Shown here in pieces: positions 9,900 to 46,195 of a stretch of 64,000 nucleotides of DNA. The translations under genes were made by a program, and so were the position numbers. Position 1 is the stretch's first letter. The number at the start of each line of letters is the position of its first letter. The notes beneath the pieces were generated by a model. That model was not told where the DNA came from and ran no database searches. It worked only from the letters and a program-made list of their open reading frames with translations. The stretch spans positions 558,001-622,000 of the forward strand of contig NZ_CADDWI010000013.1 in NCBI RefSeq assembly GCF_902809845.1, in the 5' to 3' direction. The stretch is from Chelativorans sp. Marseille-P2723 (GTDB lineage Bacteria; Pseudomonadota; Alphaproteobacteria; Rhizobiales; Rhizobiaceae).

Positions 9900-9912
9900 A
9901 GTTTTATCCTTT

Positions 9913-10680: not shown

Positions 10681-10693
10681 GGCGCAATCCTCC

Positions 10694-15394: not shown

Positions 15395-15483
15395 TGTTGA
15401 TCCTCCTATCATTATGTGACCGGTTAGCGGTCTTGTTTCCCCTCGCGCTGCGGCTGTCGACAGCCGAAGTCAGTTGGCATCAT

Positions 15484-16230: not shown

Positions 16231-16278
16231 GGCGAGCCTCCCACTCTCTCCAGACAGGCAACATTGAACCATATGGTA

Positions 16279-16297
16279 CAATATGTCAATAATATTG
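16279..16297. promoter_or_regulatory. Inverted repeat in the divergent promoter region
   Basis: CAATAT-N7-ATATTG lies in the AT-rich 132-bp gap between the leftward SDR/transport/monooxygenase operon and the rightward aminotransferase gene. The surrounding DNA also holds repeated TGCATATG-like steps (16296-16309). The symmetry and position suggest an operator for a dimeric regulator, possibly the RpiR protein encoded at the operon's end. That link is inference. Confidence 0.45.
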
Positions 16298-16362
16298 CAT
16301 ATGTTGCATAACAATGGGGCTCGGTGCTATTGCTAAGCAGCTCTTCAAAGAGGATAAAACGC

Positions 16363-17727
16363 ATGGGCGAGCGAGCAGCCAGGCCAGAACAGTCCGCGAT
16401 CAGAACAAGTGTTTTCCATCGCTATCCGGCCGTGACGATGCCTTCGGCCGCGCGCGGCGAGGGCCCATATATTCTGGATACAAACGGAAAGCGTTACATA
16501 GATGGATCGAGCGGTGCGGCGGTCTCGTCGCTCGGGCACGGCCATCCCCGTCTTACCGCCGCCATCAAGGCCCAGCTCGACGAGCTTGCCTTCGCTCATA
16601 CCGGCTTCTTCACGAGCCAGGTCGCTGAAGAGCTTGCGGATCTGCTGACGGAAGCTGCTCCGGGGATGGACAAGGTCTACTTCGTCTCCGGCGGTTCTGA
16701 GGCGGTGGAAACCGCCATCAAGGTGGCAAGGCAATATTTTGTCGATAAGGGCGAACCCTCGCGACGGCGTATAATCTCGCGACGGCAGAGCTATCACGGC
16801 AATACGCTGGGGGCGCTCGCGGCAGGCGGTAACATCTGGCGCCGCGAAAAATTCGGCCCCTTACTGGCGGAGGTGAGGCATATCAGCCCATGCTACCCCT
16901 ATCGTGAGCAGCGCTATGATGAGACGGAGGCGGCCTATGGGCGCCGCATCGCTGACGAGCTTGAGGCGGCGATTCTCTCTCTCGGTCCTCAAACAGTGAT
17001 GTGCTTCATCGCCGAAACGGTTGGAGGCGCGACCCTTGGCGCAGTTCCTCCAGTGGAAGGATATTTCACCCGTATCCGCGAAATCTGCGACCGGTATGGC
17101 GTGCTGCTTATCCTCGACGAGGTGATGTGCGGGATGGGTCGCACCGGTACCTTATTCGCTTACGAACAGGAAGGAATTGTTCCGGACATCGTCACGCTGG
17201 CCAAGGGGCTCGGCTCGGGATATCAGCCTCTCGGCGCGATGATGACCACGCGCGCCGTTTTCGAAACGATTGTCGAAGGATCGGGCTTTTTCCAGCACGG
17301 CCACACTTATACCGGTCACATCACGGCCTGTGCTGCTGGCCTGGAGGTACAGCGGATCATTCGTAACGAGGATCTTTTGTCCAACGTGCGGCTGCGCGGC
17401 GCTCAGCTTGCAGACGCTCTGCAGGAACTCTTCGGCAATCATCCGCATATCGGCGATATCCGCGGGCGCGGATTGATGCTGGCGATGGAGTTCGTCGCCG
17501 ATCGGTCGAACAAGACTCCCTTCGATCCCAACCGCAAACTGGCAACTCGGCTTAAGGCAGCAGCGCTGGAGCGCGGTTTGATCTGCTATCCCATGAGCGG
17601 TCTTGTCGACGGTGTTTCGGGAGACCACGTGATGCTCGCGCCCCCATTCATCATCGACGAAAGCCATGTTGCCGAAATTGTCGATAAGCTCGACGCAGCG
17701 ATAACGGCGGTGCTCGCCGGGAATTGA
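16363..17727 (+). CDS. Class III PLP-dependent aminotransferase
   Basis: 454 residues. The ATG at 16363 has AGAGGA 8 bases upstream; a GTG 39 bases earlier is less likely. Features: GSSGAAVSSLGHGHPR, SGGSEAVETAIKVARQYF (PLP phosphate-binding), LILDEVMCGMGRTG (PLP ring Asp) and TLAKGLGSGYQPLGAM with the Schiff-base Lys. The family transfers amino groups from omega-amino acids, diamines or amino alcohols to pyruvate or 2-oxoglutarate. Divergent from the polyamine-type transport and SDR operon, it probably deaminates the imported amine. The exact donor is unknown. Confidence 0.9.
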   Translation: MGERAARPEQSAIRTSVFHRYPAVTMPSAARGEGPYILDTNGKRYIDGSSGAAVSSLGHGHPRLTAAIKAQLDELAFAHTGFFTSQVAEELADLLTEAAPGMDKVYFVSGGSEAVETAIKVARQYFVDKGEPSRRRIISRRQSYHGNTLGALAAGGNIWRREKFGPLLAEVRHISPCYPYREQRYDETEAAYGRRIADELEAAILSLGPQTVMCFIAETVGGATLGAVPPVEGYFTRIREICDRYGVLLILDEVMCGMGRTGTLFAYEQEGIVPDIVTLAKGLGSGYQPLGAMMTTRAVFETIVEGSGFFQHGHTYTGHITACAAGLEVQRIIRNEDLLSNVRLRGAQLADALQELFGNHPHIGDIRGRGLMLAMEFVADRSNKTPFDPNRKLATRLKAAALERGLICYPMSGLVDGVSGDHVMLAPPFIIDESHVAEIVDKLDAAITAVLAGN

Positions 17728-17799: not shown

Positions 17800-19116
17800 T
17801 CAGCCGAAGCTTTCAAGCGCGCGCGCAAGGGCGGGATGTGTTCTTGCGTGTTCGGCCGCGGGGATGCCCGCCTTGGCAGCCTCGAAGGCCTCATGAATGG
17901 ATCGCACGCCTGCCTCCATCCCGTCGGGATGCGCAACGATGCCGCCGCCGGCGCAGAAGATGAGGTCGTCGCTGCCGAGCCGGCGATAGGTATCGCCAGC
18001 CTGGACGGCGGACTGTCCCGACGAGAACACGGGCATCACGATATCAGGACGGTCCGTCCGGGTGAACATCGGTGTAAGGCATGCCCGCGCCGAGGCGATC
18101 ACACTGTCGTCAGGTTCACAAAATTTGTTGGCAAGGCCGTTTACATGGAGATGATCGACACCAGCCAGGCGCCAGAATTTCTGGTAGGCAATATAGCTTA
18201 TGCCAAGATGCGGAGAGCGGTCATACATGCCCCAGCCGGCACGATGGCCGTGCAACACCACGGAGGAGTGACGACGAACCTCCACCACACCCGCCAGTCC
18301 GACAGAATTCAGCACCAGCATGGCGCAGGTCCCGCCGCGCTTTTCTATAATATCGAGCTGGCGGCGCATGGCATCGAGATCGCCGGAAATATTTACAGCG
18401 TACATTGCCTTGCGGCCTGTACGGTCGGCATGACGATCCACCACCTTCATGACCGCTTCGAAACGTTCGGCAAAGGGTGAGTGGGGTGGGTCCCCCATCA
18501 GTTCATCGTCCTTGAGGAAGTCCAGCCCGGCAGCGATCATCCGGTCCGCCATCTCCGCCGTCGCTTCTGGCGCAAGGCCCACGCTCGGCTTGATGATCGT
18601 ACCCACAATCGGCCTTCCATAAACGCCCGTGACGCGCCGGGTGCCCTCCACCGCGAACGCTGGGCCGGGATAAGCATCGGCAAAAGCATCGGGGAGCTGA
18701 AGGTCAATGAGCTTAAGCGCAGAAAAGTGCCGCAACTCGAACAGATTTCCCAGCACGGTCGACCATACGGTCGGAAGAATGGCGCCGGTGTTTTCAAGAT
18801 TCCAGGAAATGCAAACGCGCGCCCTGCGGCTGCGGGGATTGGGGCCGGCCGAGGCCGGCGGTCGGGAATGAGGAAGCGACGGCCCACCGGCAACCTCGCC
18901 GAGGTCCTCGATTGCTTCTACGCGAGCGCCATAACGGGCAAGCAGCTCCGGCGTCTCGCCAGGCACCGGACGAAAGGTTCCGCTCGATTGCTCACCGGCC
19001 ATGGCCGCGGCGGCTTCCTCAAGCGGATAGGCGGTCTCTATGTTATATGTTGCGATAATACGTTCCTGCATGGCAGTGGCCTCCGCTCCGGCACTTTTTT
19101 TGGTGGTAGTCGTCAT
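17800..19116 (-). CDS. RuBisCO-like protein, 3-oxo-isoapionate-4-phosphate lyase type (OiaX/OiaT-like)
   Basis: 438 residues if begun at the ATG at 19116, just behind the regulator's stop; an internal ATG at 19071 (423 residues) has a better GGAGG. The form I/II large-subunit fold is recognisable: GTIIKPSVGL (Lys176 kept, the second Lys of KPK replaced by Ser), LDFLKDDE (carbamylatable Lys202 and metal ligands kept), DHLHVNGLANKF (loop-6 region) and AGGGIVAHPDG (phosphate site). In D-apionate gene clusters such proteins act on 3-oxo-isoapionate 4-phosphate, either decarboxylating it (OiaX) or splitting it hydrolytically (OiaT). Neighbouring lactonase, oxidoisomerase and DUF1537 kinase genes support this. 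Which of the two reactions applies cannot be decided here. Confidence 0.85.
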   Translation of the reverse strand: MTTTTKKSAGAEATAMQERIIATYNIETAYPLEEAAAAMAGEQSSGTFRPVPGETPELLARYGARVEAIEDLGEVAGGPSLPHSRPPASAGPNPRSRRARVCISWNLENTGAILPTVWSTVLGNLFELRHFSALKLIDLQLPDAFADAYPGPAFAVEGTRRVTGVYGRPIVGTIIKPSVGLAPEATAEMADRMIAAGLDFLKDDELMGDPPHSPFAERFEAVMKVVDRHADRTGRKAMYAVNISGDLDAMRRQLDIIEKRGGTCAMLVLNSVGLAGVVEVRRHSSVVLHGHRAGWGMYDRSPHLGISYIAYQKFWRLAGVDHLHVNGLANKFCEPDDSVIASARACLTPMFTRTDRPDIVMPVFSSGQSAVQAGDTYRRLGSDDLIFCAGGGIVAHPDGMEAGVRSIHEAFEAAKAGIPAAEHARTHPALARALESFG

Positions 19117-19117
19117 A

Positions 19118-19879
19118 TCAGTCGGCTCCGTTCGCGCTGGATGCCGCAGCAAGCGACGCGCCCGGATTCCCCAGGGCCGGGTCGGCCAATTGCCGGTAAA
19201 GTTGATTCCCCCTTGTAATGTGCTCGCTCATTAGTGCGCTAGCCTGCTCCCCGTCGCCGTTAACGATTGCCTTGTAGATCTTCTCATGTTCCAGGATCGT
19301 CACCCGCTCGGCACCGCGTACCGAGACGAGTTCCCGCTTGAAGCGGGAAAGCCAGTGCAGCATCCCCTTCGTCACCGCAGCGACCAGCGAATTGCCGCTC
19401 ATCTCGGCAATGATGCCGTGAAAGGCCATGTCGGCGCCTACGAAGGCAGCGTGATCGCCGCGCGCTTCCTGCAGTTCCCGTACCGATTCTCCCAGCCTTT
19501 CAAGATCCCGGGCGGTGGCGTTCCGCGTGGCCATACGCACCATCGCCGTCTCCAGCCAGAGCCGAGCTTCCTTCAGTTCATCGAGCCCGCGCGGGCTGAC
19601 AGCCAGAAGCATGATCATGGCCGCTGAAATCTGATCGATAATGATTTCCGGCGCCGGATTGATGACACGCGCGCGCTCCCCGTGCGAGATCCGGATCAAG
19701 CCCATCTGCTGCAGGGTAAGCATAGCCTCGCGAATAGAAGGACGGCCGACAGCGAACATGTTCATCAACTCGCGCTCGGACGGAAGCTGCGAGCCGGGCG
19801 GGAATTCCGCCGTGGAGATTGCCGTAATCAGCCGGTCCAACACTTCTTCATAGAGCTTACGCTTCTGCACGGGCTCCAT
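19118..19879 (-). CDS. GntR-family transcriptional regulator, FadR subgroup
   Basis: 253 residues from the ATG at 19879 (AAGGAGA upstream; a longer in-frame start is possible but would include atypical sequence). The N-terminal winged helix reads LPSERELMNMFAVGRPSIREAMLTLQQMGLI, and residues about 95-235 form the all-helical FCD ligand domain, with metal-binding-type His residues (FHGIIAEMSGN, EHEKIYKAI). It sits between the RuBisCO-like gene and the divergent apnO-like gene and is the likely local repressor. A candidate half-site, TTGTATGATGA, occurs in the intergenic region at 19959. Confidence 0.9.
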   Translation of the reverse strand: MEPVQKRKLYEEVLDRLITAISTAEFPPGSQLPSERELMNMFAVGRPSIREAMLTLQQMGLIRISHGERARVINPAPEIIIDQISAAMIMLLAVSPRGLDELKEARLWLETAMVRMATRNATARDLERLGESVRELQEARGDHAAFVGADMAFHGIIAEMSGNSLVAAVTKGMLHWLSRFKRELVSVRGAERVTILEHEKIYKAIVNGDGEQASALMSEHITRGNQLYRQLADPALGNPGASLAAASSANGAD

Positions 19880-19958
19880 TCTCGTCTCCTTCTGTTCAGA
19901 CCGGTCCTTCCACATCTTCCTCAGCATCCTAGCACCGCGCTGTTCTGATTGACACCAC

Positions 19959-19969
19959 TTGTATGATGA
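19959..19969 (+). promoter_or_regulatory. Candidate GntR operator half-site (copy 1)
   Basis: TTGTATGATGA in the 236-bp divergent gap between the GntR regulator and apnO-like genes. It differs by one base from TGGTATGATGA found twice before the second apnO-like gene (46073-46083 and 46185-46195) and resembles the TGGTAT half-sites of FadR-subgroup regulators of sugar-acid genes. Confidence 0.4.
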
Positions 19970-20115
19970 CCTAACCTCTTCGATGAAATTTAATAGGTTT
20001 CCGGCAAGCGATATGGACGCGGGCCATGGATGCAGACTGGAATGCCGTCGGCGCCGTAATTGTTCAAGGTCTGGCGGAGGACCTAGCGCAACCTGGTAGT
20101 GAAAGAGATTAAAAC

Positions 20116-20943
20116 ATGACCACAATCGCGCTCATCGGTGCAGGTGGCAAGATGGGTTACCGCCTGGCCGGGAAGCTCAAGGAGTCCCGTTTCAAACTCA
20201 AATGCGTGGAGGTGAGCGAGGCTGGTAAGGAACTGCTTCAAACGAGGCTTGGCCTTACCTCCGTTTCGGCGAAGGAAGCCGTGCCGGGAGCAGACATCGT
20301 GGTGCTCGCCGTCCCCGACACGGCCATTGGCAAGGTCGCCCACTCCATCCTCGACGATCTGAAGAGGGGAGCGATGGTCATCGTCCTGGACGCGGCGGCA
20401 CCCTTTGCCGGCCATTTGCCCAAGCGCGACGATCTGGTTTACTTCATAACGCATCCCTGCCACCCTCCAATCTTCAACGATGAGACCGATCCAGATGCCA
20501 AGCGTGACTTCTTCGGCGGCGTAGCAGCCAAGCAGCACATTGTCTGTGCGCTGATGCAGGGGCCGGAAGAGGCCTATGCCATAGGCGAGGAGGTCGCGAA
20601 GATCATCTGGGCGCCGGTGATGCGGTCGCACCGGATCACGGTAGAACAGCTCGCCCTGCTCGAGCCCGGCCTTGCGGAGACCTTATGCGCCAGTCTGCTG
20701 GACGTGATGCGCGAGGCTCTGGACGAGGTGGTCAAACGGGGCGTGCCGCGCGAGGCGGCGCGCGACTTCCTGCTTGGCCACATGAACGTCCTGGGGGCGG
20801 TAATCTTCGAAGAAACACCCGGCGTCTTCTCAGATGCGTGTAACAAGGCGATCGAGTTCGGCAAGCCGATGCTCATGCGCGAGGATTGGAAACGCATCTT
20901 CGAACCGCAGGAACTGCTGGAAAGCATCAGACGGATTACGTGA
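20116..20943 (+). CDS. apnO: D-apionate oxidoisomerase-like NAD-dependent dehydrogenase
   Basis: 275 residues. An N-terminal Rossmann domain (IALIGAGGKMGYR) is followed by a helical C-terminal domain of the 6-phosphogluconate/ketol-acid type, with the block HPCHPPIFNDETD and VCALMQGPEEAYAIGEE. By family knowledge ApnO proteins convert D-apionate to 3-oxo-isoapionate through oxidation and rearrangement. The flanking lactonase-like, DUF1537 kinase and RuBisCO-like genes complete that route. It is the first gene of the rightward operon. A second homologous gene exists at 45213-46058. The name is assigned from context plus general family resemblance. Confidence 0.75.
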   Translation: MTTIALIGAGGKMGYRLAGKLKESRFKLKCVEVSEAGKELLQTRLGLTSVSAKEAVPGADIVVLAVPDTAIGKVAHSILDDLKRGAMVIVLDAAAPFAGHLPKRDDLVYFITHPCHPPIFNDETDPDAKRDFFGGVAAKQHIVCALMQGPEEAYAIGEEVAKIIWAPVMRSHRITVEQLALLEPGLAETLCASLLDVMREALDEVVKRGVPREAARDFLLGHMNVLGAVIFEETPGVFSDACNKAIEFGKPMLMREDWKRIFEPQELLESIRRIT

Positions 20944-20987
20944 GGGGCGCCGTGGGTAGTACAGCGCGATTCCGGGGAAATTGAAGA

Positions 20988-22886
20988 ATGACTGACCAGC
21001 GATCCCTGGCCCTATGGGGCACGAGCGAGCCGGTCAGTGAATCCCGTGTCCTGCGCGCCGGTCCACTGGCGGTGGAACTGGATGGAGGCAACCTTAGGGC
21101 AGTGCGCTGGCATGGGCTCGAAGCGATCCGGGCTATCCAGTTTTTGGTGCGCGACGAGAATTGGGGCACGCTCGCACTGGAGACGGAACGCCTCGACATC
21201 GAGGAAGGTGACGGCCAGTTCAGCGTCACCACCGAAGCCCGGTGCCGCAATGGCGACGCCACTCTCCTGGTCAGAACCTCGATAACGGGCTCGGCGGAGG
21301 GCAAGCTTGTCTTCGATGCGGAAGCCATTCCAGACCATACCTTCATCACCAATCGCTGCGGCTTCTGCATCCTCCATCCCATCGTGGGCGTATCGGGCGC
21401 GCCGGCCCGAGTAGAGCATGTGGATGGCAGCGTGCGCGAGGCGCGCTTTCCTGCGATCATCGAACCCGCCCAGCCATTCATGGATCTGCGTGCGATCACG
21501 CATTGGCCGGCGCCAGGTATCGAGGTGCGCTGCCTGATGGAGGGTGACACCTTTGAAATGGAAGACCAGCGCAACTGGTCGGACGCATCATACAAGACCT
21601 ATGTCCGCCCGCTCGCCCTGCCTTGGCCCTATCTGCTTGAGGCGAACGTTCCAGTGCGCCAGCGCGTGACACTCGCCATTTCCGGCGCGCCGGCCTCCCA
21701 ATCAACGGGCCCCCGCAGCGAGGGGGAGGCGATCGATGTCGAGATTGGCGAACCGATCGCGCCTATGCCGGAAATGGCGGTTGCGGTAATCCCAGACGAG
21801 TGCGCCGCAACGCTCGCCGAACTTGATCTTCTCGCGGCGAGCCGGGCTTCGCGCCTGATATTGCATTTCAACCCGCTCGAAGGTCACGGCACCGCTGAAT
21901 TGGCTGCCTATGCCGAACTTCAGCAAAAGGCGGATCTTCCGGCGACGCTTGAGTTCGTCCTGCCTTGCCGCCAAAGCGCTGAACGAGAGTGTAGTGAACT
22001 CGCCGCGTTGCTCGACAAGGCCGGATTGAGCCTTGCCGAACTCGCCATCAGTCCCGCTCCGGACCTGAAATCGACGCCGCCCGGCAGCATATGGCCCGAT
22101 TGCCCGTCGTTTGAAGAGATTTATGGCGCCGCCCGCAAAGCGCTGCCCGAACTGCGGCTTGGCGGAGGCATGTTCAGTTATTTCACCGAGCTCAACCGGA
22201 AGCGTCCACCGGCGGAGTTCATCGACTTCATTACCCACACCACGGCACCCATCGTGCACGCAGCAGACGACCGTAGTGTCATGGAGACGTTGGAAGCGTT
22301 ACCCTTCATTATCGCGTCGGTGCGGGCAATCTATGGCGACAAGCCCTACCGCATCGGGCCATCCACAATCGGCATGCGACACAACCCCTACGGCGCCCGG
22401 CTGAACGAAAACCCCGGCCGCCGCCGCATCACCATGAGCTCGGACGATCCGCGCCAGCAGGGCCTGTTCGCCGCTGCGTGGATGGTGGGTTACGCTGCCA
22501 GCATCGCTAGCGGGGGACTGGAAGTGCTCTGTCTTGGCGCTTTGACCGGCCGTTTCGGTGTGCTGGCGGACAACACATTGCTGCCAGCCTTTCACGCACT
22601 GCGCACACTCGGAAGCATATCCGGCGAGCCGCTGAGGAAGGTGCGCACGAGCAATCCTTCCGTCGCACTGGCGCTCGGCAATGATCGGCATCTGCTTGTC
22701 GCAAACATTACCGATCGGCCAATATCGCTCCGGACCGGCGCTTTTGCCGATGCAGCCGTTCTGGACGAGAGCAATCTTGCATCCATCGACGATGCCGCAC
22801 TGCTGGATAAGGAACGCCCGGCCGGCTCCGAATTACGGCTTGGCGCCTATGGCATCGCCGTGCTGAAGTCTGCGAAGCTCGCATGA
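20988..22886 (+). CDS. apnL: D-apionate lactonase-like protein
   Basis: 632 residues without a signal peptide, hence cytoplasmic. The N-terminal half looks beta-rich and the C-terminal half like a barrel (LGGGMFSYFTELNRKRPP, ITHTTAPIVHAADD, GPSTIGMRHNPYG). The size and position beside apnO-like and oiaK-like genes match ApnL, which opens D-apionolactone to D-apionate. I recognise this mainly from operon context and length. It ends by overlapping the kinase start (ATGA). An alternative is a glycoside-hydrolase-like enzyme of unknown role. Confidence 0.65.
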   Translation: MTDQRSLALWGTSEPVSESRVLRAGPLAVELDGGNLRAVRWHGLEAIRAIQFLVRDENWGTLALETERLDIEEGDGQFSVTTEARCRNGDATLLVRTSITGSAEGKLVFDAEAIPDHTFITNRCGFCILHPIVGVSGAPARVEHVDGSVREARFPAIIEPAQPFMDLRAITHWPAPGIEVRCLMEGDTFEMEDQRNWSDASYKTYVRPLALPWPYLLEANVPVRQRVTLAISGAPASQSTGPRSEGEAIDVEIGEPIAPMPEMAVAVIPDECAATLAELDLLAASRASRLILHFNPLEGHGTAELAAYAELQQKADLPATLEFVLPCRQSAERECSELAALLDKAGLSLAELAISPAPDLKSTPPGSIWPDCPSFEEIYGAARKALPELRLGGGMFSYFTELNRKRPPAEFIDFITHTTAPIVHAADDRSVMETLEALPFIIASVRAIYGDKPYRIGPSTIGMRHNPYGARLNENPGRRRITMSSDDPRQQGLFAAAWMVGYAASIASGGLEVLCLGALTGRFGVLADNTLLPAFHALRTLGSISGEPLRKVRTSNPSVALALGNDRHLLVANITDRPISLRTGAFADAAVLDESNLASIDDAALLDKERPAGSELRLGAYGIAVLKSAKLA

Positions 22887-24196
22887 GCGCGCCGCTGCTT
22901 GCCTATTATGGCGATGACCTGACGGGCTCCACCGATGTGATGGAAGCGCTGGAGCTTCGCGGTATCCGGACCGTGCTGTTCACGGCCATACCTGACAAGA
23001 CCCTGCTTGAGCGTTTCAGCGGCCACCAAGCCTTTGGAATTGCCGGAACAAGCCGAAGCGAAACGCCGCAATGGATGGACGCTCACCTGCCGCCGATCTT
23101 CCGCTGGCTCGACGCTACAGGGGCTGCGATCTGCCACTACAAGGTTTGCTCCACCTTTGATTCCAGCCCCGAAATCGGCAGCATTGGCCGAGCCCTCGAC
23201 CTGGGTGCGGAAGTGTTCAAACAGTCCAGCGTCCCTATCGTCGTAGGGGCACCGCAGCTCAGGCGATGGACCGCATTCGGTAATCTGTTTGCCGATTTCC
23301 GCGGCAAACGCTTCCGCATAGACCGTCATCCAGTCATGAGCCGGCATCCTGTAACCCCCATGGATGAAGCCGATCTGCGCCGGCATCTTGCGCGCCAGAC
23401 GGATCGCACGATTGCGCTTGTCGATTGCGCGACACTCATCTCCCCGGAAGCTGATCGGGCGATGGACGCAGCGCTTGCCGAAGGCGCGGCGGTTCTGCTT
23501 GACGTGATCGACGCCTTTACGCAGGCAGAGGTCGGACGGCAGCTCTGGCGCAAACGGGGCGAGGCACGTTTCGTGGTGGGCTCCTCCGGAGTCCAGTATG
23601 CGCTGTCGTCAGATGCAGCCGGCACGCCTTTTTCCGGCTCGCCCCGGAATTTTGCGGCACCCGGCGGCGCCGGTCCGATCGCTGTTGTCTCGGGAAGCTG
23701 TTCGCCAACAACGAGCAGGCAGATTCGCTACGCCTTGCAAAATGGCTTCGCCGGCGTCGCGGTTGATGCAGCGGCACTGTCGCAACCGGGAGCGGCGCGG
23801 GATGCGGAAATTGCGCGCACGGTGGAGGGGGGGCTTGCCGCTTTGGAGGATGGCCGTAGCGTGGTGCTCTACAGTGCACTCGAAGGCGAGATACCGGTCG
23901 ACAAGGGGGGCGGCAGTGGAGGCCACTTGCTGGGATTGGCGCTAGGCACGATCCTGTCGGCCCTGATCGGCAAGGCACGCCTGAAGCGGGTTCTCGTCGC
24001 GGGTGGGGATACGTCCAGCCATGCCATGGCGGCAATGGGAATTGCGGCGCTGGAGTGCCGCACGCCAATCCCCGGAGCGCCCGGTTCTCCCTTATGCATT
24101 GCACATTCCGCAACCGAAGAATCTTCCTTCGAGGTGACCTTCAAAGGCGGCCAGGTGGGGGGAGATGATTATTTTGCCCTGCTACGCGATCTCTGA
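22883..24196 (+). CDS. oiaK: Four-carbon acid sugar kinase family (DUF1537), 3-oxo-isoapionate kinase-like
   Basis: 437 residues with the two DUF1537 domains: an N-terminal substrate domain starting YYGDDLTGSTDVMEAL and a C-terminal nucleotide domain with VVSGSCSPTTSRQI and LVAGGDTSSHAM. The family includes OtnK, DtnK, PdxA-linked kinases and OiaK. In this cluster the likely reaction is ATP-dependent phosphorylation of 3-oxo-isoapionate at O4, giving the substrate of the RuBisCO-like protein. The start overlaps the lactonase stop by 4 bases, so the two are translationally coupled. Confidence 0.8.
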   Translation: MSAPLLAYYGDDLTGSTDVMEALELRGIRTVLFTAIPDKTLLERFSGHQAFGIAGTSRSETPQWMDAHLPPIFRWLDATGAAICHYKVCSTFDSSPEIGSIGRALDLGAEVFKQSSVPIVVGAPQLRRWTAFGNLFADFRGKRFRIDRHPVMSRHPVTPMDEADLRRHLARQTDRTIALVDCATLISPEADRAMDAALAEGAAVLLDVIDAFTQAEVGRQLWRKRGEARFVVGSSGVQYALSSDAAGTPFSGSPRNFAAPGGAGPIAVVSGSCSPTTSRQIRYALQNGFAGVAVDAAALSQPGAARDAEIARTVEGGLAALEDGRSVVLYSALEGEIPVDKGGGSGGHLLGLALGTILSALIGKARLKRVLVAGGDTSSHAMAAMGIAALECRTPIPGAPGSPLCIAHSATEESSFEVTFKGGQVGGDDYFALLRDL

Positions 24197-24216
24197 TTCT
24201 TGTAGGGATAAGCAGA

Positions 24217-24233
24217 TTGGTATAATGAGTATG
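24217..24233 (+). promoter_or_regulatory. Candidate GntR operator (copy 2) before the sugar transporter
   Basis: The motif TTGGTATAATGAGTATG followed by CC gives imperfect TGGTAT...ATGCCA symmetry, and it contains TGGTATAATGA, one base different from the motif before the second apnO-like gene. It sits in the 100-bp gap between the kinase and the binding-protein gene, suggesting that the transporter has its own regulated promoter. Confidence 0.45.
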
Positions 24234-24296
24234 CCAGACCGTTTGAACGGTTGAAGCAGCAAGCGGTTTATCGGCGCTTCTAAAGGGAGGATAAGA

Positions 24297-25337
24297 ATGA
24301 TCAGGAAATTGCTATTTGCGGGTCTCGCTGCCTCAACCGGGCTGGCTGGCATGCCCGCCATCGCCACTGCGCAGGAGGGTGACCGTCCGGTCATCGCCCT
24401 GTCCAACTCGTTCTACGGCAATACCTGGCGCCGCCAGATGGTGGACGCCTTCACCGCCGAGGCGGAGAAAGCCAAGGCCGAAGGCAAGATCGCCGACTAC
24501 GTTGTCCTCAATGGCGATGGCAGCGTGGCCCAGCAAAACAGCCAGATGGCCGAGCTTATCCTGCGCGGTGTTGACGCGATTGCCATTAATGCCGCATCGG
24601 AGACCGCCCTCAATGGCTTGGCTGAGCAAGCCTGCGCAGCCGGAATCACCGTTGTCGCCTTCGACTCTCTTTTGACCGCAGACTGTGCGTATAAGCTCTC
24701 GTTCGACTTTACCGGCTACAAGACCGCCCAGGCCGAGGCGACTCTCGAATTGATCGGCAACAAGGGTAATGTCATCGTCGTGCGAGGCGTCCGCGGGTCC
24801 GGCCCCGACAATCTGATGTATTCGGCGCAGAAGGCGGTCCTGGACGACAATCCTGATGTCACCGTCGTGGCAGAAGTCTATGGGCAGGCGACTGCTTCGA
24901 CTGCACAACAGGCCATCTCCAACGTGTTGCCGAGCCTTCCGCAGGTCGACGCGGTTCTGGCGCAGGGCGGGAGCGACGATTACGGCATTGCGCAAGCATT
25001 TGAGCAGGCGGGCGGACCTTACGCCGAAAAGCTTCCCGTGATCGAAGGCGGCGGCAGCACCGACTTTGTCATATGGTGGAGCAAGAAGGCTGCTGAAGGA
25101 TATCGTACCACTTCGATGAACACTACGCCCGGCATCGGCGGCGCGGCCTTCTGGCTTGCCTATGAGATCACCCAGGGAGCAGAGCCGGCGAAGGAGATGA
25201 CCATGCCTGTCGCTGTTGTCGATGAGGAGAATCTGGAGGAGATGGCAAAGGACCTGCAACCCGGGATGATCATCAGTCCGAGCTATGATCAGGAATGGGT
25301 TCGCGCCAATCTTATTGAAGGTGGCGGGGACGAGTAA
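24297..25337 (+). CDS. Sugar ABC transporter substrate-binding protein (CUT2 type)
   Basis: 346 residues. An N-terminal signal peptide (MIRKLLFAGLAASTGLAG, cleavage near ATAQ) is followed by a periplasmic-binding-protein type 1 domain (ALSNSFYGNTWRRQMVDAF, QMAELILRGVDAIAINAAS, GNVIVVRGVRGSGPDN). Preceded by GGGAGG. Related proteins bind pentoses, hexoses and branched sugars in the periplasm. The adjacent apionate-type genes suggest apiose, apionolactone or a related branched sugar as ligand, which is inference. Confidence 0.88.
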   Translation: MIRKLLFAGLAASTGLAGMPAIATAQEGDRPVIALSNSFYGNTWRRQMVDAFTAEAEKAKAEGKIADYVVLNGDGSVAQQNSQMAELILRGVDAIAINAASETALNGLAEQACAAGITVVAFDSLLTADCAYKLSFDFTGYKTAQAEATLELIGNKGNVIVVRGVRGSGPDNLMYSAQKAVLDDNPDVTVVAEVYGQATASTAQQAISNVLPSLPQVDAVLAQGGSDDYGIAQAFEQAGGPYAEKLPVIEGGGSTDFVIWWSKKAAEGYRTTSMNTTPGIGGAAFWLAYEITQGAEPAKEMTMPVAVVDEENLEEMAKDLQPGMIISPSYDQEWVRANLIEGGGDE

Positions 25338-25344
25338 CCTCCGC

Positions 25345-25367
25345 GGCGGCTGCCACTGGCAGCCGCC
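25345..25367 (+). terminator. Hairpin between binding protein and ATPase-permease genes
   Basis: GGCGGCTGCC-ACT-GGCAGCCGCC is a perfect 10-bp stem with a 3-base loop, 7 bases after the binding-protein stop. There is no T run. It probably stabilises the binding-protein transcript or partly terminates it, like the hairpin in the other ABC operon at 14331-14350. Confidence 0.65.
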
Positions 25368-25401
25368 AGCATATATCGCCTGAAAGGGAAACCACGATCT
25401 G

Positions 25402-27864
25402 ATGGCGACCAGTCCGGCGCTGAAACAGCGTCCCCAGGATCATGCAAGCCTGCCGCCACTGGCGGCACTGACGCGCATCGCCAAGACCTATGGCGACACT
25501 CATGCCAACAGCGATGTCAACTTTGACATCGCCGCCGGGGAGGTCGTCGGCCTCGTAGGCGCGAATGGCGCCGGCAAGAGCACGCTGATGCGGATTCTGT
25601 GCGGCGTCACCGAACCCAACAGCGGCGCGATGCGCTTCGATGGGCAGGAGATCGACCTTGCTGTCTATTCGCCTCAGCAGGCGAGGGAGCGAGGGATCCG
25701 CATCGTATGGCAGGAGCTTTCGCTTTCGCCAAATCTCAGCGTCGCTGAAAATTTCTACGTCGAGCAGCCACAATTTGTGCGCCGTTCGGCATTCTGGCTG
25801 CGCGACTATCACCGCCTGGCGAACGAAGCGATAGAGCGCATATTTCCAGGTGCTGCCATCTCCACGCGAAGGCTCGTCTCAGACATGACGATTGCCGAGC
25901 GGCAGATGGTGGAGATTTCGCGCGCCGCCTGCGATCCCCGCCTCAAGCTTCTGATCCTTGACGAGCCGACTTCATCGTTGGGTGCCGAGCGCAGCCGCCA
26001 ATTGAGAGACTTTGTGCGAGCACTGGCCGGGGAGGGAAAGGCTGTCATCTTCATCAGCCACAAGCTCTCCGAGGTGCTTTCCCTTTGTGACCGCGTAGTG
26101 GCCATGCGAAACGGCCGCATCGCCTGGGAGAAGCCGGCAAACGAGGCCAATATTGATGATCTCGTCAATGCGATGGGCGGAGCCGGTGTAGGTCAACGGG
26201 CAGCACGCCGGGACAGCCGCCTGGAAGCGGCTGGTGCGGTGCAGGTGCGTATCGATGGCCCCTGGCTGGCAGGAGATCAGCGGCCGGTTGAACTGCGGGC
26301 GGGCGAGGTCATCGGTCTGGCTGGGCTGGAGGGAAGCGGCCAGAAGAGGCTCCTTCAGGCTCTCTTCGCCAAGAAGCACGGAGATGGCCTGGAGCGTCAC
26401 GGCCCAGTCCGCTACGTCTCGGGTGACCGGCAGCTCGAAGGGGTGTTCCCGCTGTGGACGGTACTTGACAACGTGCTGATTGGCCGCGTCGCCCAATGGG
26501 CAGGTTGGCGGCCCGTGAATGTGCAAAAAAATCGTCCTGCAGTCGAAAAAGCAGCACAGCGCCTGTCGCTCGACCCCGGACGCCTTGATTCGAACATTCT
26601 CGAACTTTCCGGCGGTAACCAGCAGAAGGCGCTGGTGGCGCGCGCCCTTATCGACGAAGCCGGCATCATCCTGCTCGACGACCCGACACGAGGGGTCGAC
26701 ATTGCCGCCAAGCGGGACTTTTACCGAGTGGTGCGGGAGATTGCCGCCGCTGGCAGACTCGTCATCTGGCTTTCCACCGAGGATCTGGAGTTCCTTGAAT
26801 GCGACCGGGTGCTGGTTTTTTCCGGAGGCAAGATCGTCACCGAACTGAGGGGCGAGGCAATATCCGAGGAGGCGATCGTCGCCTCCTCGTTTGCCAAACC
26901 GGAGAAATCTGCACAATCTGCGCCTGCTCGTGAGGACCGTTCGCTCCTGACGATGTTGCTGAAATCCATTCCCTTTGTCAGCCTGGTGCTCGTCTTTGCG
27001 GCCATGACCTACCAGAACCCGCTCGTGGCTTCGGGTTTCGGACTGCAATTGCTGCTGACGCCGGCAGTTACGCTTGTGCTCATTGCAGTGGCCCAGATGT
27101 TCATCGTCGGTGGAAGCGAGATCGATCTCGGCGTGGGCAACTTTTGCGGCCTGGTCAATGTTGTGAGCGCTACCATCCTTTTTACCGCGCCCTTCACCGG
27201 CGGAGCGATATTGATCGGCCTGATCGCCGCCTATGCCCTGATGGGGCTGCTGATCCAGGCTCGCGCCATTCCCGCCATCGTTGTCACGCTCGGCGCCTCC
27301 TTCGTTTGGGCCGGACTCGGACAGACGATCCAGCCCTCCCCCGGCGGCGCAAGCCCTGAATGGCTGCGGGCTATGTTCAGCTTCAAGGTGCCAGGCATAC
27401 CGACCCCCCTGCTGCTGATATTTCTGGTGGGTCTTGCCGCCTATTCGATCGACCGATCGCCGGCCGGGACCATCCTTCGCGCATTCGGCTCCAATGTGTT
27501 GGCTCTGCGGCGGGCTGGCTGGTCGCACAACCGCTATTCAGTGCTGCGTTACGGCATCGCCTCCATCTTCGTTATGATCGCCGGGCTATACGTAACCGCT
27601 ACGAACGGAGCGAGCGACATAAATGCAGGCACCTCCTACACGTTGCTTGGCATCGCCGCGGTCGTAATTGGCGGCTGTCAGCTTCTGGGCGGGGTGATCG
27701 CCCCTCTGGGTGTGGTGGCGGGTGCGGTAACACTTGCCTTGATCGGCGCACTGCTCGCGTCGCTCGGCGTCAGCACCGACTACAATGCCGCTGTCCAAGG
27801 TACCCTGCTCATCCTGATCCTGGCCCTGCAGGCACTGGCCGGATGGAGACGCAGCCGTGGCTGA
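25402..27864 (+). CDS. Fused sugar ABC transporter: RbsA-like double ATPase joined to RbsC-like permease
   Basis: 820 residues. Residues 1-497 are a duplicated RbsA/MglA-type ATPase: Walker A GANGAGKST at 53-61, Walker B LILDEPTS at 184-191, H-loop SHK, then a second half with GLEGSGQ, LSGGNQQK at 402-409 and LLDDPTRG at 424-431. A linker (498-512) leads into a membrane domain of about 308 residues with eight or more hydrophobic stretches and the RbsC-type GGSEIDLGVG. Usually these are separate proteins. Odd points: the first half lacks a canonical LSxGQ signature (TIAERQMVE), and the second Walker B has Asp in place of the catalytic Glu. The next gene supplies another permease. Confidence 0.9.
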   Translation: MATSPALKQRPQDHASLPPLAALTRIAKTYGDTHANSDVNFDIAAGEVVGLVGANGAGKSTLMRILCGVTEPNSGAMRFDGQEIDLAVYSPQQARERGIRIVWQELSLSPNLSVAENFYVEQPQFVRRSAFWLRDYHRLANEAIERIFPGAAISTRRLVSDMTIAERQMVEISRAACDPRLKLLILDEPTSSLGAERSRQLRDFVRALAGEGKAVIFISHKLSEVLSLCDRVVAMRNGRIAWEKPANEANIDDLVNAMGGAGVGQRAARRDSRLEAAGAVQVRIDGPWLAGDQRPVELRAGEVIGLAGLEGSGQKRLLQALFAKKHGDGLERHGPVRYVSGDRQLEGVFPLWTVLDNVLIGRVAQWAGWRPVNVQKNRPAVEKAAQRLSLDPGRLDSNILELSGGNQQKALVARALIDEAGIILLDDPTRGVDIAAKRDFYRVVREIAAAGRLVIWLSTEDLEFLECDRVLVFSGGKIVTELRGEAISEEAIVASSFAKPEKSAQSAPAREDRSLLTMLLKSIPFVSLVLVFAAMTYQNPLVASGFGLQLLLTPAVTLVLIAVAQMFIVGGSEIDLGVGNFCGLVNVVSATILFTAPFTGGAILIGLIAAYALMGLLIQARAIPAIVVTLGASFVWAGLGQTIQPSPGGASPEWLRAMFSFKVPGIPTPLLLIFLVGLAAYSIDRSPAGTILRAFGSNVLALRRAGWSHNRYSVLRYGIASIFVMIAGLYVTATNGASDINAGTSYTLLGIAAVVIGGCQLLGGVIAPLGVVAGAVTLALIGALLASLGVSTDYNAAVQGTLLILILALQALAGWRRSRG

Positions 27865-28816
27865 CGCATTGCTGAACGCAGCGCAACGCCATCGCTGGAT
27901 CTGGCCGGCACTGGGGGTCCTGTTGCTGTGGGCGGCGCTGACAGTGCTGACTGCCCGCTTCAGCCTGCACAGTCTCAGCGGCGTCGCCATGTCCGCGTCG
28001 TTTCTGCTCATGCCCGCGCTCGGCCAGATGCTGGTGATAACCACAGGTCGGGGCAATATCGACCTGTCGATTCCGAGCGTCATCACCGTCAGCGCCTATG
28101 TCACGGTCGTGACGGCAAGCAGCGGCATGAACGGCTTCTGGCTGCCGCTGTTCCTGGTCATTGTCATTGCCGTCGGCGTTGGGTTGTTCAATGCCATGCT
28201 GCTGCTCGTCCTGCGCATTCCGGCGATGATCGCCACACTGGCGACGGGTTACATCCTTGCAACGGCAACCTTGCTCGTGAATGCGCGGGTCAGCATTTTT
28301 CCTCGACCTCCGGTTCTCATCTGGCTGGCCACAGGCCGTATCGGCGGTTTGCCAGTAATCTGCCTGATCGCTCTTACCGTGGCCGCAGTGGTCGGGATCG
28401 TGTTGGCGCGTACGGCCTTTGGAAAACAGCTTTCCGCCGTGGGGCAGAACATTGTGGCTGCGCGCTATGCTGGTGTGCAGACCGCCCGGCTGATCGCCAG
28501 CGCCTTCGTCGCAAGCTCTCTGCTTGCAAGTCTGACAGGCATGCTCCTGGCTGCCTATGCTGGCGGTGCGTTCCTGGAAATGGGTGCGCCATACCTTCTC
28601 CAGTCGGTAGGCGCCGTGGTGCTTGGCGGCACGCTCATCGCAGGCGGCAGCGCCAGCGTGCTTGGGACCTTCTTCGGGTCTTTTCTGCTCATCCTCATCG
28701 TCACCACCATGCAAATCGCCGGCCTTCCCGCCGGTGCTCAGGACATCCTGCAGGGGCTCGTCATCATCGGCGTGCTTTCGATAGCAGGGGGCAAGCTCCG
28801 AAGCCGCAGGGACTGA
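27857..28816 (+). CDS. Sugar ABC transporter permease (RbsC-like)
   Basis: 319 residues starting at a GTG that overlaps the last 8 bases of the fused ATPase-permease gene. At least eight hydrophobic segments, the RbsC-type motif TTGRGNIDLSIPSV and the loop GKQLSAVGQNIVAARYAGV are visible. It would pair with the membrane half of the fused protein to form the inner-membrane channel, making the transporter asymmetric in its permeases. No clear terminator hairpin is seen in the 235 bases after its stop. Confidence 0.88.
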   Translation: MADALLNAAQRHRWIWPALGVLLLWAALTVLTARFSLHSLSGVAMSASFLLMPALGQMLVITTGRGNIDLSIPSVITVSAYVTVVTASSGMNGFWLPLFLVIVIAVGVGLFNAMLLLVLRIPAMIATLATGYILATATLLVNARVSIFPRPPVLIWLATGRIGGLPVICLIALTVAAVVGIVLARTAFGKQLSAVGQNIVAARYAGVQTARLIASAFVASSLLASLTGMLLAAYAGGAFLEMGAPYLLQSVGAVVLGGTLIAGGSASVLGTFFGSFLLILIVTTMQIAGLPAGAQDILQGLVIIGVLSIAGGKLRSRRD

Positions 28817-29539: not shown

Positions 29540-29962
29540 CTAAGCGCCCACGGAGGCGCCGTTGGACGGATCGGCACAGGCTGCGCAGAGGCCGCTCATC
29601 TCTATGGTGGTCTTCTCAGGCTCGAATTTATGCGCCTCTATCCATCTGCCTAGCCGCTCTTCTATGCCCGCGTCGGAAAATTCGTTCACCCGTCCGCAGG
29701 TACGGCAGATGGCGAAGGCAATGATCTCGTGCGCATGACAATGGGGATGTGCACAGGCAACGAAGGCACTGATGCTCTCAAGCCGGTGGACAAGCCCGAG
29801 TTCCTGAAGCTTGTCGAGCGCCCTGTAAACCTGAAGCGGCGCCCGGAAACCGTCATCACGCAGCAGGTCCAGAATGGTGTAGGCGCTCAGCGGGATCTCC
29901 GCTTGTCCTAGTGCCTTGAGCACCAATGCCTGGTTCCTTGTCAGTTCGGGATGCGCAGTCAT
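29540..29962 (-). CDS. zur: Zinc uptake regulator Zur (Fur family)
   Basis: 140 residues from the ATG at 29962, which overlaps the znuB stop (ATGA). The N-terminal winged helix (LTRNQALVLKALGQAEIPLSAYTIL, APLQVYRALDKL) leads to a metal domain with CAHPHCHAHEI, CRTC and a C-terminal CAAC, the structural zinc cysteines of Fur/Zur proteins. Co-transcription with znuCB and two Zur-like boxes upstream of that operon identify it as Zur rather than Fur or Mur. With zinc bound it would repress znuA and znuCB-zur. Confidence 0.9.
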   Translation of the reverse strand: MTAHPELTRNQALVLKALGQAEIPLSAYTILDLLRDDGFRAPLQVYRALDKLQELGLVHRLESISAFVACAHPHCHAHEIIAFAICRTCGRVNEFSDAGIEERLGRWIEAHKFEPEKTTIEMSGLCAACADPSNGASVGA

Positions 29963-30783
29963 GTCGATCCCCCGGCCTGGGAGGAAGCAGGGCTGGCGCG
30001 CCACGGCGCCCGTAGCAAGCTTAGAAGAAAGAGAACGAGCGCGGCGACCACGATTGATGGGCCCGATGGGGTGTCAAAGTGAAGCGACGAGAAAAGACCG
30101 CCCAGAACCGCCGCCGCCCCTGCCAGCGCTGCAAAAAGCGCCATCGCTTCCGGCGTGTCGGCGAAGCGCCGTGCGGTCGCTGCCGGTATGATGAGAAGAG
30201 AGGTTATCAGCAATATCCCAACGATCTTGATGGCAATGGCGATGATCGCCGCCATCAGCAGCATGAAAGCAAGCCGGGCCCGCTCCGGCTGTAGACCCTC
30301 CGCCTCGGCGATCTCCGTATTCACCGTTGCAGCCAGCAGGGGCCTCCAAAGCCAGGCGAGCACGAGAAGGACGAGCGCGCCGCCAGCATAGATCACCGCG
30401 ATATCGAGGCGCGATACCGAGAGAACGTCACCGAAGAGGAACCCCATGAGGTCAATGCGTATCCAACTCATGAACGCCACCAGGACCAATCCGAGCGCCA
30501 GGGTAGAATGGGATAAAATGCCCAGCAACGCGTCCGTCGACAACGCGCCCTGCCGCTGAAGGATGAGGAGGGCCAGCGAAGCAAGCGCAGCAACGATGAA
30601 GACGCTCGCCGTCAGATTGATTTCCAGCATGAAGGCCAGCGCTACGCCAAGAAGCGCGGAATGAGCCATCGTGTCGCCGAAATAGGCCATTCGACGCCAC
30701 ACCACGAAGCAGCCGAGCGGGCCCGCCACAAGCGCAAGCCCTATCCCGGCAATGACGGCGCGCGTGAAGAAATCGTCAAGCAT
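29959..30783 (-). CDS. znuB: Zinc ABC transporter permease ZnuB
   Basis: 274 residues with seven or more hydrophobic segments and the conserved GDTMAHSALLGVALAF motif of the ABC-3 metal permeases near residues 35-50. Its start overlaps the end of znuC by 8 bases and its stop overlaps zur, so znuC-znuB-zur form one tight operon. Inner membrane; imports zinc handed over by ZnuA. Confidence 0.93.
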   Translation of the reverse strand: MLDDFFTRAVIAGIGLALVAGPLGCFVVWRRMAYFGDTMAHSALLGVALAFMLEINLTASVFIVAALASLALLILQRQGALSTDALLGILSHSTLALGLVLVAFMSWIRIDLMGFLFGDVLSVSRLDIAVIYAGGALVLLVLAWLWRPLLAATVNTEIAEAEGLQPERARLAFMLLMAAIIAIAIKIVGILLITSLLIIPAATARRFADTPEAMALFAALAGAAAVLGGLFSSLHFDTPSGPSIVVAALVLFLLSLLRAPWRASPASSQAGGST

Positions 30784-31612: not shown

Positions 31613-31638
31613 CCTTATTGCCACCAGATATGGCATAC

Positions 31639-31675
31639 GTTATAGCATTACGCAATCGACACGTTATGTCATAAC
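31639..31675. promoter_or_regulatory. Two Zur boxes in the znuC/znuA divergent promoter
   Basis: GTTATGTCATAAC (31663-31675) is a perfect 13-base palindrome, and GTTATAGCATTAC (31639-31651) is an imperfect copy of the same pattern. They match the alphaproteobacterial Zur consensus and lie in the short divergent gap between znuC and znuA. Both genes would be shut off together when zinc is plentiful. Confidence 0.85.
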
Positions 31676-31703
31676 ATTAAGCGCATCACTCTGGGATAAC
31701 CCG

Positions 31704-45212: not shown

Positions 45213-46058
45213 TCATGCGCCTTCGCCATGGACAATCAGTTCCGATGCTTCCCGGACCTTGGCGGGCGAGAGCGCCTCGCGCCACTCAGGCTGGACCACC
45301 AGGCTCTTTGCAAAACGCATCAGCCGCAGTGCGGCGTCGGACGGCACCTTTGGCGAAAAGCCGAACCACATGGCGATCTCCACATTGAGATGGCCGATTA
45401 GGAAATCCATGGCTGCCTCGCGCGGGATGCCGTATTTCTTCTCGCATTCCTCAACCGCTTCAACCATCGTGTCCACGAAGGGCATCGCGATCATCTCCGA
45501 CAGTCCCGGTTCGAGAATGGCAAGCTGCTCCACGGTGACGCGATGGGCATTGTTGATCGGCGACCACATGGCCCGGCAGATTTCCTCACCCAGAGCATAG
45601 TGCTCTTCCGGCCCCTGCATAAGCGCGCAGACGATCGACTGGCGGGCAATGCCGCCGTGATAATCGCGGCGAGCCTCCCAATCCGTCTCGTCGTTAAAGA
45701 GGGGAGGATGGCACGGATGCCCGACAAAATAGGTCAAGTCCGGCCGGTCCTCCGGCAGGACCCCGGCATAGGGTGCCGCCGCGTCGAGAATGAGTAGCAT
45801 TGTCCCCGAAGCCAAGCCAGGTACAAGCTCTTGCGTCACCTTACCAATCACATTGTCAGGCAACGCCATCACGACCACCTTGGCGCCGTTCACCCCCTCC
45901 TTTAAGTCCACCGGAGTAATGCCCGCTTCCGCCAAGCGCTCGCGACCTGCCTCGCTGATCTCGATAGGGCGAACGTCGTAGCCGGCATCAATGAGCTTGC
46001 GCGTGACGCGATAGCCCATCTTTCCGCCTGACCCCAGTACTGCGATGGATAACGCCAT
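45213..46058 (-). CDS. Second ApnO-like NAD-dependent oxidoisomerase/dehydrogenase
   Basis: 281 residues from the ATG at 46058 (GGAGGAGG upstream; an in-frame ATG at 46079 is an alternative). The Rossmann IAVLGSGGKMGYR, HPCHPPLFNDETD and VCALMQGPEEHYALGEE blocks and LAILEPGLSE match the apnO-like protein at 20116-20943 closely, with divergence in between. The gene stands alone between IS debris and the hrpB locus. Two copies of TGGTATGATGA lie upstream of it, the same motif found near the main cluster. It probably acts on a related branched or C4-C5 sugar acid. Confidence 0.8.
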   Translation of the reverse strand: MALSIAVLGSGGKMGYRVTRKLIDAGYDVRPIEISEAGRERLAEAGITPVDLKEGVNGAKVVVMALPDNVIGKVTQELVPGLASGTMLLILDAAAPYAGVLPEDRPDLTYFVGHPCHPPLFNDETDWEARRDYHGGIARQSIVCALMQGPEEHYALGEEICRAMWSPINNAHRVTVEQLAILEPGLSEMIAMPFVDTMVEAVEECEKKYGIPREAAMDFLIGHLNVEIAMWFGFSPKVPSDAALRLMRFAKSLVVQPEWREALSPAKVREASELIVHGEGA

Positions 46059-46072
46059 TTCCTCCTCCGGAG

Positions 46073-46195
46073 TCATCATACCAGATTAGGAAGCTATATG
46101 CTCAACTGGACGCGCTGACAAGCAGGAATACGCCGAATTCCTCAATCTACGCTGAAGCCTTTAGATCGCTGTACGTTCAAGATGTGGTATGATGA
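46073..46195. promoter_or_regulatory. Two inverted copies of TGGTATGATGA before the second apnO-like gene
   Basis: TCATCATACCA (46073-46083, reverse complement of the motif) and TGGTATGATGA (46185-46195) are exact 11-base matches in opposite orientation, 101 bases apart. The first lies between the ribosome-binding site and the upstream promoter region of the gene. Near-copies occur at 19959 and 24219 beside the GntR regulator and sugar-transporter genes. Confidence 0.5.

Follow-up and report, generated by a model that had tools for sequence, protein, structure and literature searches.

The RLP locus and its genes

The stretch of DNA analysed here, the window, comprises 64,000 nt of Chelativorans sp. 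Marseille-P2723 (contig NZ_CADDWI010000013.1, positions 558,001-622,000), and all coordinates are given within it. Between 17800 and 28816 lies a cluster in which a RuBisCO-like protein (RLP) and a NanR-type regulator are encoded on the minus strand, and an ApnO-family oxidoisomerase, an ApnL lactonase, a DUF1537 kinase, a periplasmic binding protein and a CUT2 transporter with a fused ATPase and permease on the plus strand (Table 1). The initial annotation had placed an RLP, a GntR regulator, ApnO- and ApnL-like proteins, a DUF1537 kinase and a sugar ABC transporter together here; the cluster is real and every gene named was found where it had been placed, with family matches far beyond chance. 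We propose that this divergent regulon would catabolise an oxidised form of D-apiose, a branched sugar of plant cell walls. The source genome (3.77 Mb, estimated completeness 99.8%) has only one match to the RuBisCO large-chain family, and the RLP scored 221.7 bits on RuBisCO_large. Translation of the RLP probably starts at the ATG at 19071, where its aligned relatives start, although the frame is open up to 19152; nanR probably starts at the ATG at 19879 in a frame open to 20125, and the two genes likely form one transcript. Relatives of the locus include Nitratireductor aestuarii (L004), and G013, a genome of the window's own genus, gave the same matches at the same places as the L004 genome.

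The assignment of the cluster to D-apionate metabolism, also made in the initial annotation, was supported by its conserved synteny and by comparison with an annotated OiaX/apiose cluster on a Rhizobium leguminosarum plasmid (L100), to which identities were 74% for ApnO, 53% for the kinase, 51% for ApnL, 44% for the RLP and 38% for the NanR-type regulator. ApnL passed the curated cut-off for D-apionate lactonase, and ApnO1, the oxidoisomerase within the cluster, has the PGDH_C domain of its family and grouped with the L100 ApnO in a tree. The kinase was under the OiaK cut-off of 700 bits and is not a member by that measure. However, the kinases of an R. leguminosarum OiaX cluster and of a Microvirga apiose cluster missed the same cut-off (484.1 and 575.4 bits), and the low score was therefore rejected as a sign of different chemistry; from its context, the kinase probably works like OiaK.

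An element close to GTTAGGTCATCATATATGTAATGTCAAT (28 bp) was present once in each of 14 window-clade loci, with up to eight substitutions, and no further match occurred in the 350,527 bases of those loci. A strict pattern matched nothing in the loci, the element being found once substitutions were allowed; even then there was no match in L008 or L014. Its place is upstream of nanR except in L011; that locus showed no nanR, and the element falls there at the beginning of the RLP reading frame. We regard it as a candidate operator or promoter.

Table 1. Features of the D-apionate-type locus and the displaced ApnO2 gene (window coordinates)
Feature	Coordinates	Strand	Evidence
RuBisCO-like protein (RLP), probable OiaT type, 423 aa	17800..19071	-	OiaX model 435 bits (<700); E60/N123/S177/H327; own clade, support 100
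GntR/FCD regulator, NanR type, 253 aa	19118..19879	-	NF003011 281.2 bits (cut-off 260)
28-bp conserved element, divergent promoter region	19948..19975	-	present in 14/16 window-clade loci
ApnO (ApnO1), D-apionate oxidoisomerase family	20116..20943	+	PGDH_C 253.1 bits; 74% to R. leguminosarum OiaX-cluster ApnO
ApnL, D-apionate lactonase	20988..22886	+	NF049900 774.4 bits (cut-off 750)
OiaK-type kinase, DUF1537 (SBD_N + NBD_C)	22883..24196	+	NF042436 439.2 bits
Periplasmic sugar-type binding protein, Peripla_BP_4	24297..25337	+	ortholog of at least 63% in 15/15 window-clade genomes searched
CUT2 ATPase fused to permease domain	25402..27864	+	two ABC_tran stretches + BPD_transp_2
CUT2 permease (second)	27857..28816	+	BPD_transp_2 99.5 bits
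ApnO2, displaced second oxidoisomerase-family gene	45213..46079	-	51% identical to ApnO1; 17-row clade with support 100

Classification of the RLP

The best NCBIfam match of the RLP was the OiaX model NF042437, yet its score of 435.2 bits was below the curated cut-off of 700. The L100 OiaX, used as a control, reached 785.4 bits, and the RLPs of Microvirga and Paraburkholderia apiose clusters scored 453 and 444 bits. Other models gave less: 125-170 bits for those of MtnW type and 159-246 bits for RuBisCO. The protein is not a true RuBisCO of forms I-III, as it has Ser at position 177 and scored 245.5 bits on the form III model against a cut-off of 497. Grouping with methylthioribulose or tetritol enzymes, named in the initial annotation as an outcome that would overturn it, was not seen among the families that were tested (125-170 bits for MtnW-type models against 435 bits for OiaX).

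Residues were compared in an alignment of 115 RLP and RuBisCO rows, with numbers that we take to be spinach RuBisCO positions. The motifs KDDE and GTIIKPS were both confirmed, and the RLP retains the fold and metal-site residues of RuBisCO: the carbamylatable Lys with its Asp and Glu (K201, D203, E204), K175, H294, R295 and K334. The full set of E60, N123, K175, S177, K201, D203, E204, H294, R295, H327 and K334 occurred in 95 of the 115 rows, the window's included, seven of them with Ala at position 380. OiaX rows (five) instead had D60, G123 and Q327, none of which the window RLP has, and position 177 was Ala in four and Ser in one. Asn was found at 177 in seven rows, among them the solved structure 3nwr, and the remaining rows were six RuBisCOs with KPK and two remote proteins. 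The initial annotation had correctly read the Lys of LDFLKDDE and the Lys and Ser of GTIIKPS, but the Ser, which it had pointed out in place of the second Lys of KPK, is a clade trait and normal for this group. We suggest from the RuBisCO mechanism that E60, N123 and H327 may function in the addition of CO2 and in hydrolysis, which would have left OiaX free to lose them.

The RLP phylogeny that had been called for was built by a quick method, with a long-branch warning and uncertain deep joins. It placed the window in a clade of 16 rows (support 100) beside a group of 57 rows (support 87); the OiaX rows (five, support 100) and the 3nwr group (seven rows, support 100) were both apart from this clade. 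Among solved structures, 3nwr was the best sequence match of the RLP (378 bits). Within the 57-row group are RLPs, 58-62% identical to the window's, of a genus that we take to be Xanthobacter and call Xanthobacter-like here. More widely, relatives of the RLP sit with a kinase and ApnO in Proteobacteria, Acidobacteria, Bacteroidota and one haloarchaeon.

Two RLP activities on 3-oxo-isoapionate 4-phosphate are given in the available text of PMC6302742: decarboxylation by the protein of A. radiobacter K84, and transcarboxylation/hydrolysis by that of Xanthobacter autotrophicus ATCC BAA-1158. A stretch of pXAUT01, a plasmid of X. autotrophicus Py2, the source of the characterised OiaT, was compared with 397 genomes of the order, and matched G101 at 90% and the next best at no more than 80%; within the Xanthobacter-like genus it matched three of 30 genomes (G433, G101 and G447) at 89-92%. 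An RLP (E <= 1e-60) was present in 17 of these 30 genomes, the 58-62% type in 16 of them and a second type of 50-51% identity in three, one of which lacked the first. RLPs of the 58-62% type adjoined an OiaK-type kinase in all 16 fetched stretches and ApnO in 15, the sixteenth (G445) being a short contig. In G432 and G445 the 50% type adjoined VOC and TRAP genes, with no ApnO or ApnL in the stretch, and for these reasons the 58-62% type is the better OiaT candidate. Because it lies beside the group with the RLPs of the Xanthobacter-like genus and apart from OiaX, the window RLP is best read as OiaT, and from its clade and active-site residues we consider it probable that it is of this type, which would make its products 3-phosphoglycerate and glycolate. 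The initial annotation had described a cleavage/decarboxylation enzyme and left the choice between OiaX and OiaT open; the evidence points to OiaT and away from OiaX.

D-apiose dehydrogenase and the importer

The absence of a clear D-apiose dehydrogenase from the cluster, remarked on in the initial annotation, extends to the whole genome: with the L100 ApsD as query, no ortholog was found in its 3.77 Mb, the best Gfo/Idh/MocA match being 29% identical over residues 8-257 of 344 (E 4.9e-12). Across the 15 window-clade genomes searched, ApsD was present (at least 61%) in 11 and absent (at most 33%) in four, namely the window's own, L004, L007 and L002, which is the closest relative by RLP; the sixteenth locus of the clade, L064, has ApsD inside the cluster. 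For these four, a set fixed before any tree was built, the RLP tree rejects monophyly (p-AU 0.023). Only three of the 16 RLP-bearing Xanthobacter-like genomes had ApsD (E <= 1e-45). Since the window's genome lacks ApsD, its main substrate is probably something other than free D-apiose.

The initial annotation had offered two ways round this gap, import of an already oxidised form and use of a nearby short-chain dehydrogenase/reductase (SDR), and the former is the better half of that alternative, the latter having found no support. No close relative of the window's SDR or class-III aminotransferase (15484-17727) was found beside the cluster in the 10-kb flanks of the relatives, where SDR-like genes of only 32-37% identity were seen (stretches of L005, L006, L010 and L038), and both genes were dropped as cluster members.

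The binding protein of the fused importer has an ortholog in every window-clade genome searched, the four ApsD-less ones included. In all 13 ApsD-less Xanthobacter-like genomes the importer permease lies 36-634 bases from ApnL, and in seven of the 13 the permease is the only part of the importer that the fetched stretch includes. The ApsD-bearing genome G441 has the order SMP-30, fused importer, ribose-type transporter with DUF2291, ApsD and ApnL, with another transporter, weakly similar to the ribose type, upstream. This cassette, together with the retention of the importer in ApsD-less genomes, implies that ApsD there brings its own transporter and that the importer persists without ApsD. 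Importers were collected in 46 rows, which after removal of five repeats from the same genomes represent 41 distinct contexts. In 28 of them a lactonase gene (ApnL, SMP-30 or MBL fold) was no more than 1.5 kb away from the importer; the MBL-fold case is a single context on plasmid L148, its place next to the permease being taken from the annotation. At the Rhizobium jaguaris locus L149 the importer stands beside an SMP-30 lactonase gene (156 bits), while the 29-kb stretch showed no apionate gene. The binding protein shares 25% identity with the ribose-type protein of the L100 apiose cluster and does not belong to the D-apiose-binding type that occurs with DUF2291. Tentatively, then, the importer may take up D-apionolactone, with apionate or apiose as alternatives. 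A literature search, which had most subscription journals outside its coverage, found no paper on an apionolactone importer.

A second, displaced ApnO

A second oxidoisomerase-family gene, apnO2, was found in all 16 window-clade loci. In the 67 rows compared, members of its clade accompany window-clade RLPs and otherwise occur only in G012; of the 248 records that matched in the plasmid collection, a single one exceeded 60% identity. ApnO2 keeps the near-invariant residues of the family and is altered at positions that are otherwise fixed, for example F133 to His, T189 to Met and F238 to Pro (ApnO1 numbering). The gene directly follows the RLP in 12 loci; in L002, L004 and L007 TRAP-like genes lie between the two, and in the window it is displaced and isolated from the cluster. 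Downstream of apnO2 is a xylose-isomerase-like TIM-barrel gene (PF01261) in 14 of the 15 other loci and in G012, L014 being cut short; no such neighbour was found in the window. The L002 copy of this gene (15173-16027, plus strand) had no NCBIfam match and has homologs in 13 other window-clade loci. A DNA comparison showed that the L002 TRAP stretch has no counterpart in the window, and the displaced apnO2 and the lack of both the TRAP stretch and the TIM-barrel gene imply that the window holds a rearranged and reduced form of the locus. By way of ApnO2 a second acid may reach the kinase and RLP of the cluster.

Inspection by eye also picked out a putative zinc-uptake set at 29540-32666, made up of a Zur-like regulator, a membrane protein, an ATPase and a binding protein, and a putative cytochrome P450 gene at 35268-36671 (minus strand).

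Proposed pathway and alternatives

Taken as a whole, the data are best explained by an apionolactone-fed, OiaT-type catabolism of D-apionate, a reading that we favour with moderate confidence. The fused CUT2 transporter would bring in D-apionolactone and, going by family assignment, ApnL would open the lactone to D-apionate, which ApnO would oxidise with a shift of the hydroxymethyl group to give 3-oxo-isoapionate. From family and context the DUF1537 kinase is expected to form 3-oxo-isoapionate 4-phosphate. The RLP would then decarboxylate this to an enediol, add the CO2 back to the neighbouring carbon as RuBisCO does and split the product by hydrolysis into 3-phosphoglycerate and glycolate. 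The shared promoter region is the probable site of action of the regulator. A more doubtful extension is that the CUT2 system is a dedicated sugar-lactone (D-apionolactone) importer for apiose oxidised outside the cell, with the apiose transporter and dehydrogenase an optional cassette, and that ApnO2 and its usual TIM-barrel neighbour form a second, hitherto undescribed entry by which another branched acid reaches the same kinase and OiaT-type RLP.

Several observations weigh against the apionolactone-fed reading. OiaT membership rests on a genus-level census in which the best match to the Py2 plasmid was 92%. No lactonase was in the fetched stretch in 13 of the 41 importer contexts, and half of the 28 positive contexts (14) belong to a single genus. 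The importer occurred in 13 of the 397 order genomes, and eight of these had an ApsD match (E <= 1e-45; none in the other five). In G230 and G124 it shares a cluster with an ApsD-like gene (45-49%), with no second, ribose-type transporter in the stretch, and G012 is similar, an ApsD-like gene (50%) lying about 1 kb beyond the binding-protein gene near the contig end; these arrangements fit import of apiose itself. A predicted model of the binding protein (mean pLDDT 83.4 from nine sequences) was closest, among the structures listed, to 4pe6 (Z 34.5, 38-39% identity), the other 49 listed being 15-23% identical. As these point to no ligand, we dropped structure as a guide to the substrate. A rival explanation of the window's cluster, for which the G230, G124 and G012 arrangements speak, is a full D-apiose pathway: D-apiose would enter through the fused transporter, and the place of ApsD would be taken by another dehydrogenase, unlinked or nearby (the SDR at 15484-16314, for example). 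CUT2 binding proteins usually bind sugars, and a dehydrogenase step would have to be followed by ApnL. We nevertheless regard this as unlikely, though worth keeping in mind: the genome has no ApsD ortholog, the SDR has no close relative beside the relatives' clusters, ApsD in G441 is accompanied by a ribose-type transporter next to the fused importer, and L002 also lacks ApsD.

In another reading the RLP would act as OiaX, a plain 3-oxo-isoapionate-4-phosphate decarboxylase, to give L-erythrulose 1-phosphate. The OiaX model was its best NCBIfam match, the gene set is that of OiaX clusters and, near relatives aside, ApnO is closest to one from an OiaX cluster. However, we rejected OiaX identity on cut-off (435 against 700 bits), clade and the retention of E60, N123 and H327, and consider this reading improbable. 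Queries from L065 found no triose-phosphate-isomerase-like or RpiB-like gene in the window, and both stand near OiaX in L065 and L166, but this argument is weak as neither type is in the stretch at the OiaX clusters L100 and L167. Another possibility, to which we give slightly less weight still, is that the cluster serves a different branched acid such as hamamelonate, with the RLP acting as in the D-hamamelose pathway of Ochrobactrum anthropi. The available part of PMC8914248 assigns an RLP to D-hamamelose and names 3-phosphoglycerate and glycolate, and the divergent ApnO2 suggests a second substrate; against this, ApnL passes the D-apionate lactonase cut-off, and ApsD is present in 11 of 15 window-clade genomes and in the L064 cluster. 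Finally, the near-complete RuBisCO catalytic residues might mean that the RLP serves an unrelated function (methionine salvage, methylthioribulose metabolism or RuBisCO-type carbon fixation) and that its apionate neighbourhood is incidental. This is scarcely credible: the MtnW-type and RuBisCO scores together with the neighbourhood led us to reject methionine-salvage and RuBisCO roles, and RLP relatives accompany a kinase and ApnO across phyla.

Comparison with known systems

Enzymes of the OiaT type bring RuBisCO chemistry, CO2 transfer and hydrolysis, into a catabolic pathway. The contrast at E60, N123 and H327 offers a simple means of distinguishing the two RLPs at the genome level and raises the question of which residues determine whether such an enzyme decarboxylates or carboxylates. 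The importer would be a testable candidate for lactone uptake, and the many ApsD-less genomes with the pathway suggest that some bacteria labelled as apiose users may live on products of apiose oxidation.

Other RLP loci differ in setting. An Actinomycetota RLP with several active-site departures (L042, from 9854-11239 onward) stands beside RpiB-, triose-phosphate-isomerase- and RpiB-like genes. On a Croceibacterium plasmid (L099, 2024-15352), RLP and kinase genes are part of a polysaccharide-degradation locus with a beta-L-arabinofuranosidase domain protein, a fucosidase and galactosidases, which suggests direct coupling of the RLP pathway to plant cell-wall breakdown. A Halalkalicoccus plasmid (L066, 10001-15025) carries a haloarchaeal RLP, a four-carbon acid sugar kinase, an ApnO-like gene and a GntP permease; this may be a minimal form of the pathway for acids only. 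At L166 (8046-16000), an OiaX cluster with the same fused importer, triose-phosphate-isomerase-like and RpiB-like genes lie next to OiaX, as fits an erythrulose-phosphate route.

3nwr ('A rubisco-like protein') belongs to the same superfamily as the window RLP but has Asn at 177 and falls in a separate clade; in its subgroup (L068, L103, L131, L133 and L136) the RLP sits beside a VOC-family protein, a TRAP transporter and a DUF1537 kinase. The RLP of the O. anthropi D-hamamelose pathway (Kim et al. 2018, as far as described in the available part of PMC8914248) resembles that of the window in lying among sugar-assimilation genes, although the sugar differs. With the OiaX route of A. radiobacter K84 and the R. 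leguminosarum plasmid L100, the window shares ApnO, the kinase, ApnL and a NanR-type regulator. Its RLP, however, is only 44% identical, of another clade and with other active-site residues, and it lacks the ApsD and ribose-type transporter of the L100 cluster.

The OiaT route of D-apiose and D-apionate catabolism was reportedly described by Carter et al. in 2018. The window has the same ApnL, ApnO, OiaK-type kinase and RLP with a RuBisCO-like active site, a gene set as in the Xanthobacter-like genus. It differs from that route in lacking ApsD, in having neither a ribose-type apiose transporter nor a TRAP transporter at the locus, and in its second, divergent ApnO and its importer with fused ATPase and permease, the latter common to the ApsD-less members of the Xanthobacter-like genus. 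The enzymes are those of a known pathway, and the variant features of the locus are the missing ApsD, the fused importer and the displaced ApnO2.

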